Under the pieces are notes generated by a model. That model searched no databases, had not been told where the DNA came from, and was given only the letters and a program-made list of their open reading frames with translations. From assembly GCA_026393975.1 (NCBI GenBank), contig JAPKZD010000016.1:1-64000 (forward strand): a DNA stretch of 64,000 nucleotides. Direction: 5' to 3'. Below, piece after piece: positions 32,829-38,263 of the stretch. This DNA comes from Candidatus Aminicenantota bacterium. Its GTDB lineage: Bacteria > Acidobacteriota > Aminicenantia > Aminicenantales > Saccharicenantaceae. The position numbers and the translations under genes are program-made. Each line of letters starts with the position of its first letter. Position 1 is the stretch's first letter.

Positions 32829-34784
32829 ATGAGTCGATACGTCAACCGGAAAGAAGTCGTCCGTCTGCCCCGGATCCCCCTGCGCGGGACTCTCGACCTG
32901 ACCTACAGGTGCAATAACGACTGCCGCCACTGCTGGCTTCGGCTTCCCCCGGATTCGGACGACGCGGCCGGCGAGCTCGCGGCCGACGAGATCCGCCGTC
33001 TCGTCGACGACGCCCGGGCGATGGGCTGCCGGGAGTGGTTCGTTTCCGGCGGCGAGCCGATGCTGCGGCCCGATTTCCCCGAGATCTTCGCCGGGATCAC
33101 GGCCAAATCGGCCTGGTACACGCTGAACACCAATGGAACCCTTATCACCCCGGAGCTCGCCCGCCTCCTGCGGCGGAAAGGCACGAAACTCGTCGCCCTC
33201 TATGGGGCCACGGCCGAGGTCCACGACGCGGTCACCCGGAACCCCGGCTCCTTCGAAGCCCTGCGAAGGGGGGTCGCCTACCTTCGCGAGGCGGGAGCGG
33301 GGTTCAGCGTCCAGGTCGTCCCCATGAAAACGAACATTTCCCAATACGACGCGATGATTCAGCTGGCCGAGTCCTGGAGCCCGAGCTGGAGGCTCGGCGC
33401 GACCTGGCTCTACCTCTCCGCGTCCGGCGACCCGGCCAAGAACGCGGAGATCAGGGCCGAGAGATTGGACCCGGCCCGGGTCGTCGAGCTCGACGGCGCG
33501 GGTTCGGGCGCCTTGGAGGATGACACGGCTCTGTCCTGCGGCTCCCCGGCCGCGGCCGGCGGCCTCTACGCAAACTGCCTCGCCGGGCGGCGCGATTTCC
33601 ACGTCGACCCCTGCGGCGGGATGAGCTTCTGCGGCTTCGTCAAGGATCCCGTCCTCCGCCTGGACCTGAGGACGATGAGTTTCGCCGAGGCCTGGGACAA
33701 GAGGCTTCCTCTTCTCGCCTCAGCCGCGGTCCCGGCGAATGCCCGGGCCGGGAACTGCGCGGCGTGCGATCTGCGGCCGGACTGCAAATGGTGTCCCGTT
33801 TACGCCTATCTCGAATGCCGCGACCATGCGGCGAAGGTCGACGACCTCTGCGCGATCGCCCGGGAGACACGCCGGTCCCGGGAGGACTGGCTCCGGACGA
33901 ACCGCCGCCGTTTCCGTATCGCCGGCCTCACGGTCGACGTCGAAGCCGACCTGCCTATCACGGACGCGACCTTCGAGCCCAAGTTCGAGCTTTTCCGGAC
34001 AGACATCCAGGGTCCGGCCGACGTCGCTCTGCGCCATCATTTTTCCCTGCCCGACCTCGCCGGCGAGGACTTGGGCCGGGAGGTTTTCCGCCAACCGCCC
34101 TGGGCCATCTACCGGAAGGGCGCTTCCTGGATCTACCTGATGATCTCCCCCGACCCGGCGGACACGACCATTCACAGGGTCATGGTTTTCAACGACGGCC
34201 ACACGCGGGGACGCATCTACAGTCCGACGGACGAGCTCTTCCGGCGGGGCGGCCTGGAATCGCTGGCCCTCCTCCCCTCGGACCAGCTCATCCTGGCCCG
34301 GCTCCTGCCCGCCTTCGGGGGCGCCTTCGTTCACGCCGCGGCGGTCAGGCTGAAGGGCCAGGGCCTTCTCTTCGCCGGACCGTCGGAAGCGGGGAAATCG
34401 ACCATCGTCAAGCTCATCGGCGAGCGGGGCGAGGTCCTCTGCGACGACCGCGTGATCGTCCGCAAAGACCCCGGCGGCTTCCGCGTCCACGGCACCTGGA
34501 ACCACGGCGAGGTCCGCCGCGTCTCGCCCGGTTCGGCGCCCCTGCGGGCCGTACTCTTTCTCCGCCGGGCCCGGGTCAACCGCCTGGAGCGCGTCGACGA
34601 CCCGAAGGCCATCCTTCGCGATTTTCTACCCCGGCTCGTCCGGCCTCTCGTCTCGGCCGACTGGTGGGAGCGGGCGCTCGCCCTGGCCGAAGACGTCGTC
34701 CGCGAAGTCCCCTTCTACAACCTCTGGTTCGACAAGAGCGGGGCCGTCGTCGAGGCCCTGGAAGAATTCGTGGAGCGGCCATGA
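32829..34784 (+). CDS. Radical SAM/SPASM peptide-modifying enzyme fused to an HprK-like kinase domain
   Basis: A 651-residue fusion. Residues 15-370 are a radical SAM/SPASM protein: CNNDCRHC (C28, C32, C35) binds the first Fe-S cluster, SGGEPMLRPDF is the SAM-contact loop, and the C-terminal cysteines (SFCGF, NCAACDLRPDCKWCPVY, DDLC) bind auxiliary clusters. Residues about 380-651 form an HprK-like kinase module, with a Walker A motif GPSEAGKST (517-525) and LCDDRVIVRKD matching VADDVV of HPr kinase. It likely modifies and perhaps phosphorylates the peptide encoded at 38081. AGGAGGA lies 28 nt before this ATG; an ATG at 32772 is an alternative. The stop overlaps the next gene (ATGA). Confidence 0.85.
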   Translation: MSRYVNRKEVVRLPRIPLRGTLDLTYRCNNDCRHCWLRLPPDSDDAAGELAADEIRRLVDDARAMGCREWFVSGGEPMLRPDFPEIFAGITAKSAWYTLNTNGTLITPELARLLRRKGTKLVALYGATAEVHDAVTRNPGSFEALRRGVAYLREAGAGFSVQVVPMKTNISQYDAMIQLAESWSPSWRLGATWLYLSASGDPAKNAEIRAERLDPARVVELDGAGSGALEDDTALSCGSPAAAGGLYANCLAGRRDFHVDPCGGMSFCGFVKDPVLRLDLRTMSFAEAWDKRLPLLASAAVPANARAGNCAACDLRPDCKWCPVYAYLECRDHAAKVDDLCAIARETRRSREDWLRTNRRRFRIAGLTVDVEADLPITDATFEPKFELFRTDIQGPADVALRHHFSLPDLAGEDLGREVFRQPPWAIYRKGASWIYLMISPDPADTTIHRVMVFNDGHTRGRIYSPTDELFRRGGLESLALLPSDQLILARLLPAFGGAFVHAAAVRLKGQGLLFAGPSEAGKSTIVKLIGERGEVLCDDRVIVRKDPGGFRVHGTWNHGEVRRVSPGSAPLRAVLFLRRARVNRLERVDDPKAILRDFLPRLVRPLVSADWWERALALAEDVVREVPFYNLWFDKSGAVVEALEEFVERP

Positions 34785-35950
34785 CCGGAACGGCCTACGT
34801 GAAAAAGATCCGCTCCGGCGAGGCCCGCCTGTGGCCGTCACGAAAGCCCCCGCTCACGCGGCTCGACATCGAGCTCACGGAGCGCTGTAATAACGATTGC
34901 ATCCATTGCTCGGTCAACCGGCCGGCCGGGGACCGCGAAGCCCGGGACCGGGAGTGGGGCGCCGAATCCTGGAAGAAGCTCCTCGACGAAGCGGCGGCCC
35001 TCGGCTGTCTCGTCGTCCGGCTGACCGGCGGGGAGCCCCTCTTGAGGGACGACTTCGAGGAGATCTACATCCATGCCCGGCGACTCGGGCTGAGAGTGAT
35101 GATCTTCACCAACGCCGCGCTCATGACGCCCGACCTGGCCCGTCTTCTGAAGGACATGCCCCCGCTCGAAGCGGTCGAGGTTTCCGTTTACGGGATGAAA
35201 GAACACACCTATGAAGCCGTGACCCGGACGCCCGGCTCGTTCGACGCCTTCCGCCGCGGCCTCGGATTTCTCCGGGAGCACGGCGTGCCCTTCATCGTCA
35301 AGGGCGCGGTGCTGCCCGCCACCCGCGGCGAGATGGACGAATTCGAGGCCTGGGCGGGCGGCCTCCCCGGCGCGGCCGGACTTCCGTCCTACGCCCTGCT
35401 CTTCGACCTGCGTTCCCGGCGGGACGGCCGGAAGAACGCGCTGATCTCGAGCCTGCGGACGGACGCCGATGAGTTCGTCCGGGTCTCGCGGCGCCACGGC
35501 GAGGAAGCCGTCGGGGAGTGGCGGGACTTCTGCGCCCGGTCAGGCGGCGGCCGCGGCGGCCGTCTTTTCTCGTGCCTGCCGTCCGGCGGGTCGGCCGCGG
35601 TCGACCCGTACGGGCGCCTCCAATACTGCCTGAGCCTGCGGCATCCGGCCACGGTCTACGACCTCGCGGCAGGCTCGCTCCGCGAGGCCGTGACGGAGTT
35701 CCTGCCGGCCGTCCGGGACCTGCGTTCCGCCGGCCGGGCCTACCTTGAACGCTGCGGCCGGTGTTTTCTCAAGGGCCTCTGCGAGCAGTGCCCGGCCAAG
35801 TCTTGGGCTGAGCACGGCACCCTGGACACGCCGGTCGAATATTTCTGCGGCATCGCCCACGCCCAGGCCGTCGCCGCCGGTCTTCTCGAGCCTGGGGAGA
35901 AAGCCTGGACCGTCACCGACGGGGCGGTAAGAACGAAGCGAAGGAGATAA
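34781..35950 (+). CDS. Radical SAM/SPASM peptide-modifying enzyme (second)
   Basis: The 389-residue enzyme has ERCNNDCIHC (C36, C40, C43) for the catalytic Fe-S cluster, LTGGEPLLRDDFEEI, and SPASM cysteines (FSCLPSGG, YCLSLRH, CGRCFLKGLCEQCPAKS). Between them is TRTPGSFDAF, a motif it shares with the first and third radical SAM proteins of the cluster, so the three are related. It could install thioether or C-C bonds in the Cys-rich precursor. It is coupled by ATGA to the upstream fusion and lies 3 bp before pqqD. Confidence 0.85.
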   Translation: MTGTAYVKKIRSGEARLWPSRKPPLTRLDIELTERCNNDCIHCSVNRPAGDREARDREWGAESWKKLLDEAAALGCLVVRLTGGEPLLRDDFEEIYIHARRLGLRVMIFTNAALMTPDLARLLKDMPPLEAVEVSVYGMKEHTYEAVTRTPGSFDAFRRGLGFLREHGVPFIVKGAVLPATRGEMDEFEAWAGGLPGAAGLPSYALLFDLRSRRDGRKNALISSLRTDADEFVRVSRRHGEEAVGEWRDFCARSGGGRGGRLFSCLPSGGSAAVDPYGRLQYCLSLRHPATVYDLAAGSLREAVTEFLPAVRDLRSAGRAYLERCGRCFLKGLCEQCPAKSWAEHGTLDTPVEYFCGIAHAQAVAAGLLEPGEKAWTVTDGAVRTKRRR

Positions 35951-35953
35951 CCC

Positions 35954-36235
35954 ATGAGCGACAAGATCGACCTCGGCAAGGTTTACGCGCCGTCCGAGGA
36001 CATCGTGGTCCGGGAGATCGAAGGGGAGGTCGTCATCGTCCCCCTCGTCTCCGGGATCGGAGACATGGAAGACGAACTGTTCACCCTCAACGAGACCGGC
36101 CGGGACATTTGGAACAAGATCGACGGGTCGAGGACGGTCGCCGCGGTCGTCCGGGAGCTGGCCGAGGAATACGACGCCCCCGCCGGCCTCCTCGAAGAGC
36201 TCCTCGTGAGGAAGATGGTCGTCGAGAAAGAGTGA
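35954..36235 (+). CDS. PqqD-family peptide chaperone (RiPP recognition element)
   Basis: A 93-residue winged-helix PqqD protein: APSEDIVVREIEGEVVIVPL, then FTLNETGRDIWNKIDGSRT and a helical C-terminus. PqqD proteins bind the leader of a ribosomal peptide and present it to radical SAM enzymes. Its place between the second radical SAM gene and the peptidase supports this. Nothing here suggests pyrroloquinoline quinone synthesis; pqqA, pqqB and pqqC are absent. Confidence 0.88.
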   Translation: MSDKIDLGKVYAPSEDIVVREIEGEVVIVPLVSGIGDMEDELFTLNETGRDIWNKIDGSRTVAAVVRELAEEYDAPAGLLEELLVRKMVVEKE

Positions 36236-36240
36236 ATGGG

Positions 36241-36738
36241 ATGGACGAGAAGCCCTCTCCGCGCATCAGGTCCGGAGGCGAGCTCCCGCTCTCGGGGGAA
36301 TCGCTCGTCGGGCTGATGCGGGCGGTCCTCGACAAGGGAAAGCCCTTCCGCTTCGAAGCTAGGGGGACGAGCATGCATCCCTTCGTCCGGGACGGTGACG
36401 TGGTCACCGTCGTTCCGCTCGCCGGTCCGGACCCGAGGCCGGGAGACGTGGCCGCTTTCGTCCAGCCGGGAACGATCGGCGTCCGGGTCCACCGCATCGT
36501 CAAGGTCGTGGCTGGCCGGTATTTCCTGAAGGGGGACAATGCCCTCGACGCCGATGGCGCGCTCGCCCGGGACATGATCCTGGGCCTGGTCGTCCGCCTT
36601 GAGCGCGGTGGCCGGGTCCGTCCCGTGGGGCCGACGTTTTGGGCTGCAGTCATCGCCCGGCTGTCCCGGACTTTTTGGTTCACCCGCATCTCGCGGCGCG
36701 CGCGGCGCCTCTTCTCCCGGCGCCCGGGGAGGGCCTGA
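36241..36738 (+). CDS. S24/S26-type (signal peptidase-like) serine peptidase
   Basis: The 165-residue product has FRFEARGTSMHPFVRDGDVV, where the Ser in GTSMHP is the expected nucleophile, then RPGDVAAFVQPG, VRVHRIVKV and YFLKGDNALDADG, the order of the S24/S26 fold. There is no N-terminal membrane helix as in LepB, so it is probably cytosolic or bound by its basic C-terminus. Related peptidases occur in RiPP clusters and may remove the leader. The ATG at 36241 is used; an ATG at 36236 is in another frame. Confidence 0.75.
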   Translation: MDEKPSPRIRSGGELPLSGESLVGLMRAVLDKGKPFRFEARGTSMHPFVRDGDVVTVVPLAGPDPRPGDVAAFVQPGTIGVRVHRIVKVVAGRYFLKGDNALDADGALARDMILGLVVRLERGGRVRPVGPTFWAAVIARLSRTFWFTRISRRARRLFSRRPGRA

Positions 36739-36739
36739 G

Positions 36740-37855
36740 ATGTCCCGCCAATTCGTCGTCCGCCGGCCGCTCCCTGAATTCACCCTTTGGGAGAAGATGG
36801 CGAGTGGGCGGGCGGTCTTCAGCTTCGACTTCGAAATGACGGCCCGCTGCAACCTCGACTGCCGGCACTGCTACATCAACCTCCCGGCCGGGGACAGGGC
36901 GGCAAAAAAGCGCGAGCTCGGCGCCGACGAGATCGGACGCCTAGGCGGCGAGGCGGCGGCCCTCGGCGCGGTCTGGTGCCTGATCACCGGCGGCGAGCCT
37001 CTCCTGAGGAAGGATTTCTTCGACGTCTACCGGGCCCTGCACCGTCGGGGGCTTCTCCTCTCTCTTTTCACCAACGCGACCCTCGTCGACGAGGAACACG
37101 TCCGGTTCTTCAAGAAATACCCGCCGCGGGATATCGAGGTGACGGTCTACGGCGTCACGAAGGAGACCTACGAGCGGGTGACCCGCACGCCGGGGTCCTT
37201 CGACGCCTTCCTGAAGGGCCTCGACCGCCTGCTCGCAAGCGGCGTCAACGTGCGGCTCAAGGCCATGGCCCTGCGCTCGAACATGCACGAAATCGCTGCG
37301 ATCGGGGACTTTTGCCGGGCCCGGACAAAGGATTATTACCGTTTCGACCCCCACCTCCACCTGAGATTCGACCGGGACGAGGCCCGGAACAGCGGCATCC
37401 TGGCGGAACGGCTCAGCCCCGAGGAGGTCGCCCGACTGGAGCGGCTGGACCCCGAGCGCTTCGGCGCCCTGACGGCGGCCTGCGACGAGCTCATCGCCCC
37501 GGAGGCGCCGGCTTCGGACTGCCGGCACCTCTTCCGCTGCGGCGTGGGGCAGAGGAGTTTCGTCATCGGGCCCGAGGGGCTCCTGCGGCCTTGCCTGTCC
37601 CTCCACCACCCCGATTTTCTCTACGACCTGAGGAAGGGAAGCGTGGCCGACGCCTGGACCCGGTTCGTCCCCGAGGTCCTGAAAAGGGAGACGAACAGAC
37701 GGGAATACCTGGAAAAGTGCGGAACATGCCCCGTCGTCAACCTCTGCCTCTGGTGCCCGGCCCACGCCTACCTCGAAACGGGGGAGCTCGACCTGCCCGT
37801 CGAGGCCTTTTGTCGCATCGCCCACGCCCGGGCAGAGGGGCTAAAATGTGGTTGA
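36740..37855 (+). CDS. Radical SAM/SPASM peptide-modifying enzyme (third)
   Basis: The 371-residue enzyme has ARCNLDCRHCYINLP (C37, C41, C44), ITGGEPLLRKDFFDVY, TRTPGSFDAFLKGLDRLL, and a SPASM region ending LRPCLSLHH, EKCGTCPVVNLCLWCPAHA. It lies 1 bp after the peptidase stop. It is closest in plan to the second radical SAM protein. A hairpin CCCGCCTT/AAGGCGGG at 37876-37893 follows the stop, and together with the repeat at 37932-38004 may reduce read-through into the precursor gene. Confidence 0.87.
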   Translation: MSRQFVVRRPLPEFTLWEKMASGRAVFSFDFEMTARCNLDCRHCYINLPAGDRAAKKRELGADEIGRLGGEAAALGAVWCLITGGEPLLRKDFFDVYRALHRRGLLLSLFTNATLVDEEHVRFFKKYPPRDIEVTVYGVTKETYERVTRTPGSFDAFLKGLDRLLASGVNVRLKAMALRSNMHEIAAIGDFCRARTKDYYRFDPHLHLRFDRDEARNSGILAERLSPEEVARLERLDPERFGALTAACDELIAPEAPASDCRHLFRCGVGQRSFVIGPEGLLRPCLSLHHPDFLYDLRKGSVADAWTRFVPEVLKRETNRREYLEKCGTCPVVNLCLWCPAHAYLETGELDLPVEAFCRIAHARAEGLKCG

Positions 37856-37931
37856 CCCGTTCGCCGACGCGAATCCCCGCCTTTCAAGGCGGGAATGAAA
37901 AGCGCGGCTCAGGGTTAACCCCGAACAAGTT

Positions 37932-38004
37932 CCGGTCCTGCCACCGCCCTTGCCGGTTGCCAGCACCGGCACTGCAAAGCCGGTGGCGAAGCCGGCAGGA
38001 CCGG
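37932..38004. repeat. Nested palindrome containing hairpin-repeat copy 2
   Basis: The outer stem CCGGTCCTGCC (37932-37942) pairs with GGCAGGACCGG (37994-38004). Inside lies the 27-mer at 37960-37986, identical to 5369-5395, with its own CACCGGC/GCCGGTG hairpin. It is 12 bp upstream of the precursor promoter. Confidence 0.8.
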
Positions 38005-38016
38005 GAAGTCCAGGGG

Positions 38017-38045
38017 TTGACAGGGCCTGGAAAACGGCCTAGAAT
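38017..38045 (+). promoter_or_regulatory. Strong sigma-70 promoter of the precursor peptide gene
   Basis: TTGACA (38017-38022), 17-bp spacer, TAGAAT (38040-38045): a near-consensus promoter. The transcript would start near 38052, about 30 nt before the ATG. It allows the substrate peptide to be made in excess over its enzymes. Confidence 0.85.
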
Positions 38046-38080
38046 GACAAAAAGGGAGCCTATTTAGAGGATTTGGTCCT

Positions 38081-38263
38081 ATGAAAAAACAATGGCAGAC
38101 GCCTGAGTTGGTGGTTCTTTTCAAGGGGCGTCCGGAAGAAACCCTCTTGTGTCATTGCAAATACAAGACGACCCCGCCCGTGGCCCCCTATAATCACAAG
38201 GACAACTGCACGTCGAACCCGGTGTGCTGCCAGGCTTGCGCCGACGTCCGCTACGCCAGTTAG
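38081..38263 (+). CDS. Cys-rich RiPP precursor peptide
   Basis: A 60-residue peptide. The first 22 residues, starting MKKQWQTPELVVLFKGRPEE, look like a leader: W-x-x-PEL with a following Glu pair occurs, as I recall, in precursors handled by PqqD and radical SAM enzymes. The core holds six Cys (C24, C26, C43, C49, C50, C53), with LCHCK at the boundary and PVCCQAC near the end. It sits right after three radical SAM genes, a PqqD and a peptidase, behind its own promoter. Thioether-type cross-links and phosphorylation of a Ser or Thr are plausible but inferred. Its stop overlaps the converging HEAT gene by 4 bp. Confidence 0.8.
   Translation: MKKQWQTPELVVLFKGRPEETLLCHCKYKTTPPVAPYNHKDNCTSNPVCCQACADVRYAS

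Follow-up and report, generated by a model that had tools for sequence, protein, structure and literature searches.

A candidate RiPP precursor encoded beside a radical SAM, HprK-like kinase and signal peptidase cassette in Acidobacteriota

The DNA analyzed here, called the window throughout, comprises 64,000 nucleotides (positions 1 to 64,000 of contig JAPKZD010000016.1, assembly GCA_026393975.1) from a Candidatus Aminicenantota bacterium of the phylum Acidobacteriota. It contains a short open reading frame (ORF), P, whose translation from 38081-38263 on the forward strand is MKKQWQTPELVVLFKGRPEETLLCHCKYKTTPPVAPYNHKDNCTSNPVCCQACADVRYAS, and five cassette genes, A-B-C-D-E, that lie upstream of P, all on the same strand (Table 1). 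An earlier note, made from the letters of the sequence, had described P as an unrecognized precursor with a W-x-x-P-E-L leader, of the kind that gives rise to a ribosomally synthesized and post-translationally modified peptide (RiPP). This description is strongly supported: the leader is conserved in relatives, and the gene lies nearly always beside a cassette encoding PqqD, radical S-adenosylmethionine (rSAM), HprK-like and peptidase proteins. No NCBIfam or Pfam family was matched by P above cut-off. Translation confirmed the six Cys residues (24, 26, 43, 49, 50, and 53) following 23 residues that are free of Cys.

To compare P across relatives we used 10 related loci obtained by tblastn or genome search, giving 11 sequences with that of the window, whose genome holds a single copy. 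The length of 60 aa is kept in all 10 related loci, the ratio of nonsynonymous to synonymous polymorphism (pN/pS) over the 11 loci is 0.20 (0.11 for leader residues 1-23 and 0.27 for the rest), and of the 83 columns that vary, 48 fall at third codon positions. Together, the constant length, the pN/pS and the third-position bias in these alignments indicate that P is a real coding gene under purifying selection.

The promoter named in the earlier note, TTGACA-N17-TAGAAT, is the sole promoter-like site near P (shuffled sequences gave 0.0 ± 0.2), and each of the 11 related loci examined has TTGAC[A/T]-N17-TAnnAT at 32-45 nt upstream of the ATG. In the relatives so examined, E terminates within the −35 box, which leaves only 60-80 bp between E and P. 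The window carries in addition a block of ~150 bp, absent from the relatives, which sits exactly where these two signals overlap and is flanked by two copies of GGTTGAC (an apparent duplication); stop codon and −35 box are thereby both preserved. The earlier note had read this region as two hairpins that set P apart from its enzymes and allow excess substrate. Inverted repeats are indeed present, but parts of the block match dozens of other places in the window genome, and a role for the hairpins as terminators or regulators was rejected: they are a dispersed repeat inserted in the window genome alone, not part of the P system, and therefore no general device for excess substrate. What remains of that proposal is the separate, conserved promoter, which allows P to be produced in larger amounts than the enzymes.

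Table 1. Genes and other features of the P locus, with positions in the window
Feature	Position	Strand	Evidence and remarks
A, radical SAM/SPASM (residues 1-~365) fused to HprK-like kinase domain (~367-651; catalytic H502, K523, D539, D540)	32829..34784	+	Pfam Radical_SAM 3e-20
B, radical SAM/SPASM	34781..35950	+	Pfam Radical_SAM 4e-22; 3+7 Cys conserved; own clade in tree
C, PqqD-family RiPP recognition element (RRE)	35954..36235	+	Pfam PqqD PF05402 1.6e-12
D, archaeal-type signal peptidase (S24/S26), predicted leader peptidase, S44/H84/D99	36241..36738	+	Pfam Peptidase_S24 6e-6, above cut-off
E, radical SAM/SPASM	36740..37855	+	Pfam Radical_SAM 1.7e-21; phylum scan
Dispersed-repeat insertion ("two hairpins") between E and P	37860..38012	.	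GGTTGAC on both sides
Promoter TTGACA-N17-TAGAAT	38017..38045	+	In relatives, the −35 box and the E stop codon overlap
Ribosome-binding site AGAGGA	38066..38071	+	9 nt before ATG, from sequence
P, precursor peptide, 60 aa	38081..38263	+	Leader W5-x-x-P8-x-L10; EE(T)LLxxCK; core C26/C43/C53; C-terminal Ser60

A contig scan with the window peptide as sole query recovered close relatives and no others. When a precursor profile built from 21 diverse relatives was run on 396 genomes of the Acidobacteriota, the phylum to which all family-profile occurrence figures refer, it matched 43 genomes, and the E-type rSAM protein, searched independently, matched 36. By hand count, at least 40 of 50 precursor matches have a cassette gene beside them, within ~2.5 kb and usually less than 150 bp away. 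Among the 21 relatives, no variation is seen at P8, E20, L23, C26, C43, and C53, and very little at W5, L10, and K27; an alignment of the compact set described below gave Y13, P16, L23, V29, C33, K34, C47, and C53 as invariant (numbering of its first row). Nearly all precursors share the motif [W/Y]xxP...EExVLxxCK...C...C. Three of the six Cys of P (C26, C43, and C53) are family-wide, and C24, C49, and C50 occur mainly in the window's genus. The pattern of conserved leader and variable core that the earlier note had anticipated thus holds for the leader, and for the core between genera, where both length and sequence differ; among members of the window's genus the core is conserved, and the peptide as a whole shows 78-97% identity.

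The fetched loci contained 59 precursor ORFs, some of them duplicated because the same genome is present in two collections, and one cut by a contig end. The last residue is Ser in 54 of the 58 intact ORFs and Thr in the other 4, and the core holds exactly three Cys in single-rSAM loci (22/22) and four or six in three-rSAM loci (18/18); these counts are descriptive only, because related sequences are not independent.

The cassettes take two forms. In the window type, with three rSAM proteins, the order is A-B-C-D-E, with the precursor following E, preceding A, or standing between B and C. The compact type reads PqqD-rSAM-precursor-HprK-signal peptidase, an order repeated in families f25, f26, f33, f39, and f50, and its single rSAM proteins are the relatives of E found outside three-rSAM cassettes. 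A kinase is present in nearly every complete cassette. We constructed a tree of 101 rSAM sequences with a midpoint root, in which A, B, E, and the compact-type proteins are each recovered as a single group (support 98/99, 100/100, 100/100, and 86/88, respectively). The groups of B and E lie closest together, with the compact-type proteins adjacent, which suggests that B and E are duplicates derived from a compact-type enzyme, the direction of change being taken from the midpoint root.

Residues expected of active enzymes are retained across the family. The CxxxCxxC motif and the seven SPASM Cys (3+7) are all present in 97 of 97 rSAM sequences; the HprK-like domains keep the His, the Lys, and the first Asp in 47 of 47 sequences and the second Asp in 45 of 47; and D-type peptidases keep the Ser, the His, and the Asp of GDN, a candidate for the catalytic Asp, in 40 of 40 each. 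All of the enzymes score below the curated cut-offs of the NCBIfam equivalogs; D matches TIGR02228 at 1e-7, under the cut-off of that model. In AlphaFold models, the HprK-like domain of A (predicted local distance difference test [pLDDT] score 95) is nearest to phosphoenolpyruvate carboxykinase (PEPCK)/HprK folds, with poor global superposition, and E (pLDDT 90) is nearest by Foldseek to SuiB, PqqE, and SkfB.

At the locus and in its relatives, a short gene with a conserved N-terminal leader and a variable C-terminal core stands beside modifying enzymes, and a PqqD-like RRE accompanies a leader that carries a known RRE-binding motif, both of which are marks of a RiPP pathway. The motif [Y/W]xxPx[L/V/I/F/A] is experimentally established for PqqD-type RREs (PMC13381572). 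In the predicted first step of the scheme, protein C would bind the W/Y-x-x-P-x-L motif of the leader and present the peptide. We consider it highly likely that P is the substrate of the A-E cassette, and probable that P is the precursor of a RiPP pathway proceeding by the mechanism proposed here. Six Cys within 30 residues, arranged in CxC and CCxxC patterns, might instead suggest a small metal-binding or redox protein that neighbors the cassette by chance, but only three of these Cys are family-wide, the best-conserved part of the peptide is the Cys-free leader with its RRE motif, and co-localization with the cassette is repeated in many families, which makes this explanation very improbable. 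Scarcely more probable is that P, like PqqA or MftA, serves as the raw material for a small redox cofactor. PqqD and rSAM/SPASM proteins are hallmarks of the pyrroloquinoline quinone (PQQ) and mycofactocin pathways, and the constancy of the core inside the genus would fit such a role; against it, precursors of different genera differ in the length and sequence of the core, all NCBIfam equivalogs score below cut-off, and neither pathway is known to include a kinase.

SPASM rSAM enzymes commonly make Cys thioethers or C-C bonds in peptides. Once P is presented by C, the rSAM/SPASM enzymes, one in compact clusters and three in the window, would cross-link it at CK...C...C, most likely through Cys thioethers; by analogy with such enzymes we regard thioethers in the product as reasonably likely. 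An alternative that we hold to be unlikely, though it deserves more weight than the two above, keeps P as the precursor and assigns to the rSAM enzymes C-C or other non-thioether changes, such as Lys- or aromatic-centered cross-links or epimerization, with the Cys binding metal or forming disulfides afterwards. It draws on the nearly invariant Lys after the first conserved Cys and on the solved folds nearest to E, which include, besides thioether makers, SuiB (a Lys-Trp bond), PqqE, and EpeE. The only family-wide residues of the core, however, are the three Cys, this Lys, and the terminal Ser or Thr, which favors the Cys as the site of modification.

The HprK-like kinase would then phosphorylate the C-terminal Ser/Thr, a step that we likewise consider somewhat favored, by analogy with kinases of lasso peptide pathways. 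HprK of carbon catabolite control acts on the protein HPr, and the peptide-kinase step proposed here is drawn from analogy; the domain might thus act on another protein or regulate the pathway. We judge this the less likely course, and slightly less likely than non-thioether chemistry, as the kinase is present in nearly every complete cassette, is fused to an rSAM protein in the window, and keeps its H/K/D/D residues, and as Ser or Thr is the last residue of every intact precursor, a feature shared with kinase-containing lasso precursors (PMC9266682). Kinases of the PadeK type act on a C-terminal Ser, and mutagenesis showed that their His-Lys-Asp-Asp residues are required (PMC9266682). In a last step the archaeal-type signal peptidase D, with the substrate presented to it by the RRE, would take off the leader. 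Such a peptidase is the leader peptidase of the linear polyphosphorylated peptides (LPPs), where it is assisted by the RRE (PMC13381572), and on that analogy removal of the leader by D is likely.

Closest to the P system among described peptides are the LPPs, the lasso peptides of the paeninodin type, and rSAM thioether peptides. The LPPs, which are peptides of Bacillota (Popov et al. 2026, PMC13381572), resemble the P system in their discrete RRE, HprK-like kinase, archaeal-type signal peptidase serving as leader peptidase, and [Y/W]xxP leader motif, and the combination of kinase, discrete RRE, and signal peptidase by which LPPs are recognized is found in the window cassette. They differ in that, as described, they have no rSAM protein and are phosphorylated at another position (PMC13381572), whereas here there are one or three rSAM/SPASM proteins and conserved Cys. 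The LPP leader motif YxxPxVLxHQxIxFETxxS is not found, the consensus here being [W/Y]xxPxL...RPEExVLxxCK, and we detected neither the nucleoside triphosphate (NTP) transferase nor the MsbA-like transporter of LPPs between 32829 and 38775. Lasso peptides of the paeninodin type (PadeA/PadeK) share the WxxPxL leader, the PqqD-type RRE, the HprK-like kinase with H-K-D-D, and the terminal Ser, but require a macrolactam synthetase (C protein), in place of which there are here rSAM enzymes and a Cys core. Both the macrolactam synthetase and the B2 leader peptidase are absent from the window cassette, and P scores 13.2 bits against the lasso precursor model NF033524, whose cut-off is 27.

Sactipeptides and ranthipeptides (rSAM/SPASM thioether RiPPs, including SCIFF) are alike in that a leader free of Cys precedes a Cys-rich core and in their SPASM rSAM maturases and RRE. 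None of their maturase models reaches cut-off, there is no match to the SCIFF precursor, and such systems are not known to include a kinase or a Ser-His peptidase. SynChlorMet (NCBIfam ScmC-ScmF, TIGR04248-04251) has two rSAM/SPASM proteins and a PqqD relative, and its ScmC is weakly matched by the kinase domain of A; the window proteins score 20-85 bits against the four models, whose cut-offs are 100-400. In two genomes, SynChlorMet-like cassettes (L103 11265-14903 and L094 5572-8988) lie within a few kb of a P-type cassette. The models were run on L103, where a convincing ScmE/ScmF pair (395 and 341 bits, just below cut-off) stands ~3 kb from the P-type cassette, a juxtaposition that marks SynChlorMet and the P system as separate. 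By curated cut-offs we rejected membership in SynChlorMet, GeoRSP, SCIFF, PQQ, mycofactocin, and lasso systems. Within the open-access literature, which was the scope of the search, we found no description of a RiPP system with rSAM and HPr kinase proteins like the P cassette.

Several points weigh against the proposed pathway. It is read from genes, and neither a product, nor a transcript, nor a modification of P has been observed. All NCBIfam models of known rSAM maturases score far under cut-off, so the chemistry of these enzymes cannot be deduced from sequence, and the window cassette contains no transporter. In the stretch fetched, seven or more precursor-like ORFs have no cassette gene near them. 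The relation between Cys and rSAM number tracks phylogeny and may reflect descent rather than function; moreover, Cys numbers of 3 and 6 are seen at two loci that have B and E but whose kinase is not fused to an rSAM protein.

Some precursor copies without a cassette (L092 3819, L095 8948, L096 9588, and L104 1806) adjoin genes for two-component, sigma-54-activator, or Ser/Thr protein kinase proteins, the neighbor in L092 being judged from an ORF start nearly identical to that in L096; this placement hints at a signaling role. Several RRE columns differ between precursors with W and with Y in the leader, but such co-variation is not separable from phylogeny and was for that reason not used. 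A further PqqD and rSAM pair, separate from the cassette, occurs in three genomes of the window's genus (L087, L088, and L089), and in one genome of that genus, G401, the A gene (L075 3088-4477) is apparently broken or partly deleted, with B and C intact and D running off the contig end.

In about nine loci a peptidase of family C25 (gingipain-type, PF01364; ~1100-1550 aa) directly adjoins a compact cluster (L136 1976-5569 and L138 1339-5007, both on the reverse strand, and L137, L144, L145, L148, L149, L161, and L162), assigned by Pfam in two loci and by phmmer homology in the remainder. A search for it in the window genome gave no match, but the controls of the same search matched nowhere either, and a search for a plasmid-borne relative, with a made-up consensus of compact precursors as query, also gave no match.

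Tentatively, and with somewhat less than even confidence, we propose that these loci represent a distinct RiPP class across many Acidobacteriota families, in which one peptide would carry both rSAM cross-links at conserved Cys and a (poly)phosphate on its C-terminal Ser/Thr; the rSAM-HprK fusion would be its most derived form, and the C25 peptidase would be coupled to it in compact clusters. If this is correct, a RiPP family that no NCBIfam or Pfam model covers is widely distributed in a phylum whose members are environmental and for the most part uncultured, and it joins rSAM cross-linking to C-terminal phosphorylation, a pair that we did not find together in the open-access literature. The motif EExVLxxCK with a terminal Ser/Thr offers a search handle for further members, and the compact clusters (one rSAM protein, three Cys) and three-enzyme cassettes (three rSAM proteins, four to six Cys) would form a natural series on how RiPP pathways gain modification steps.
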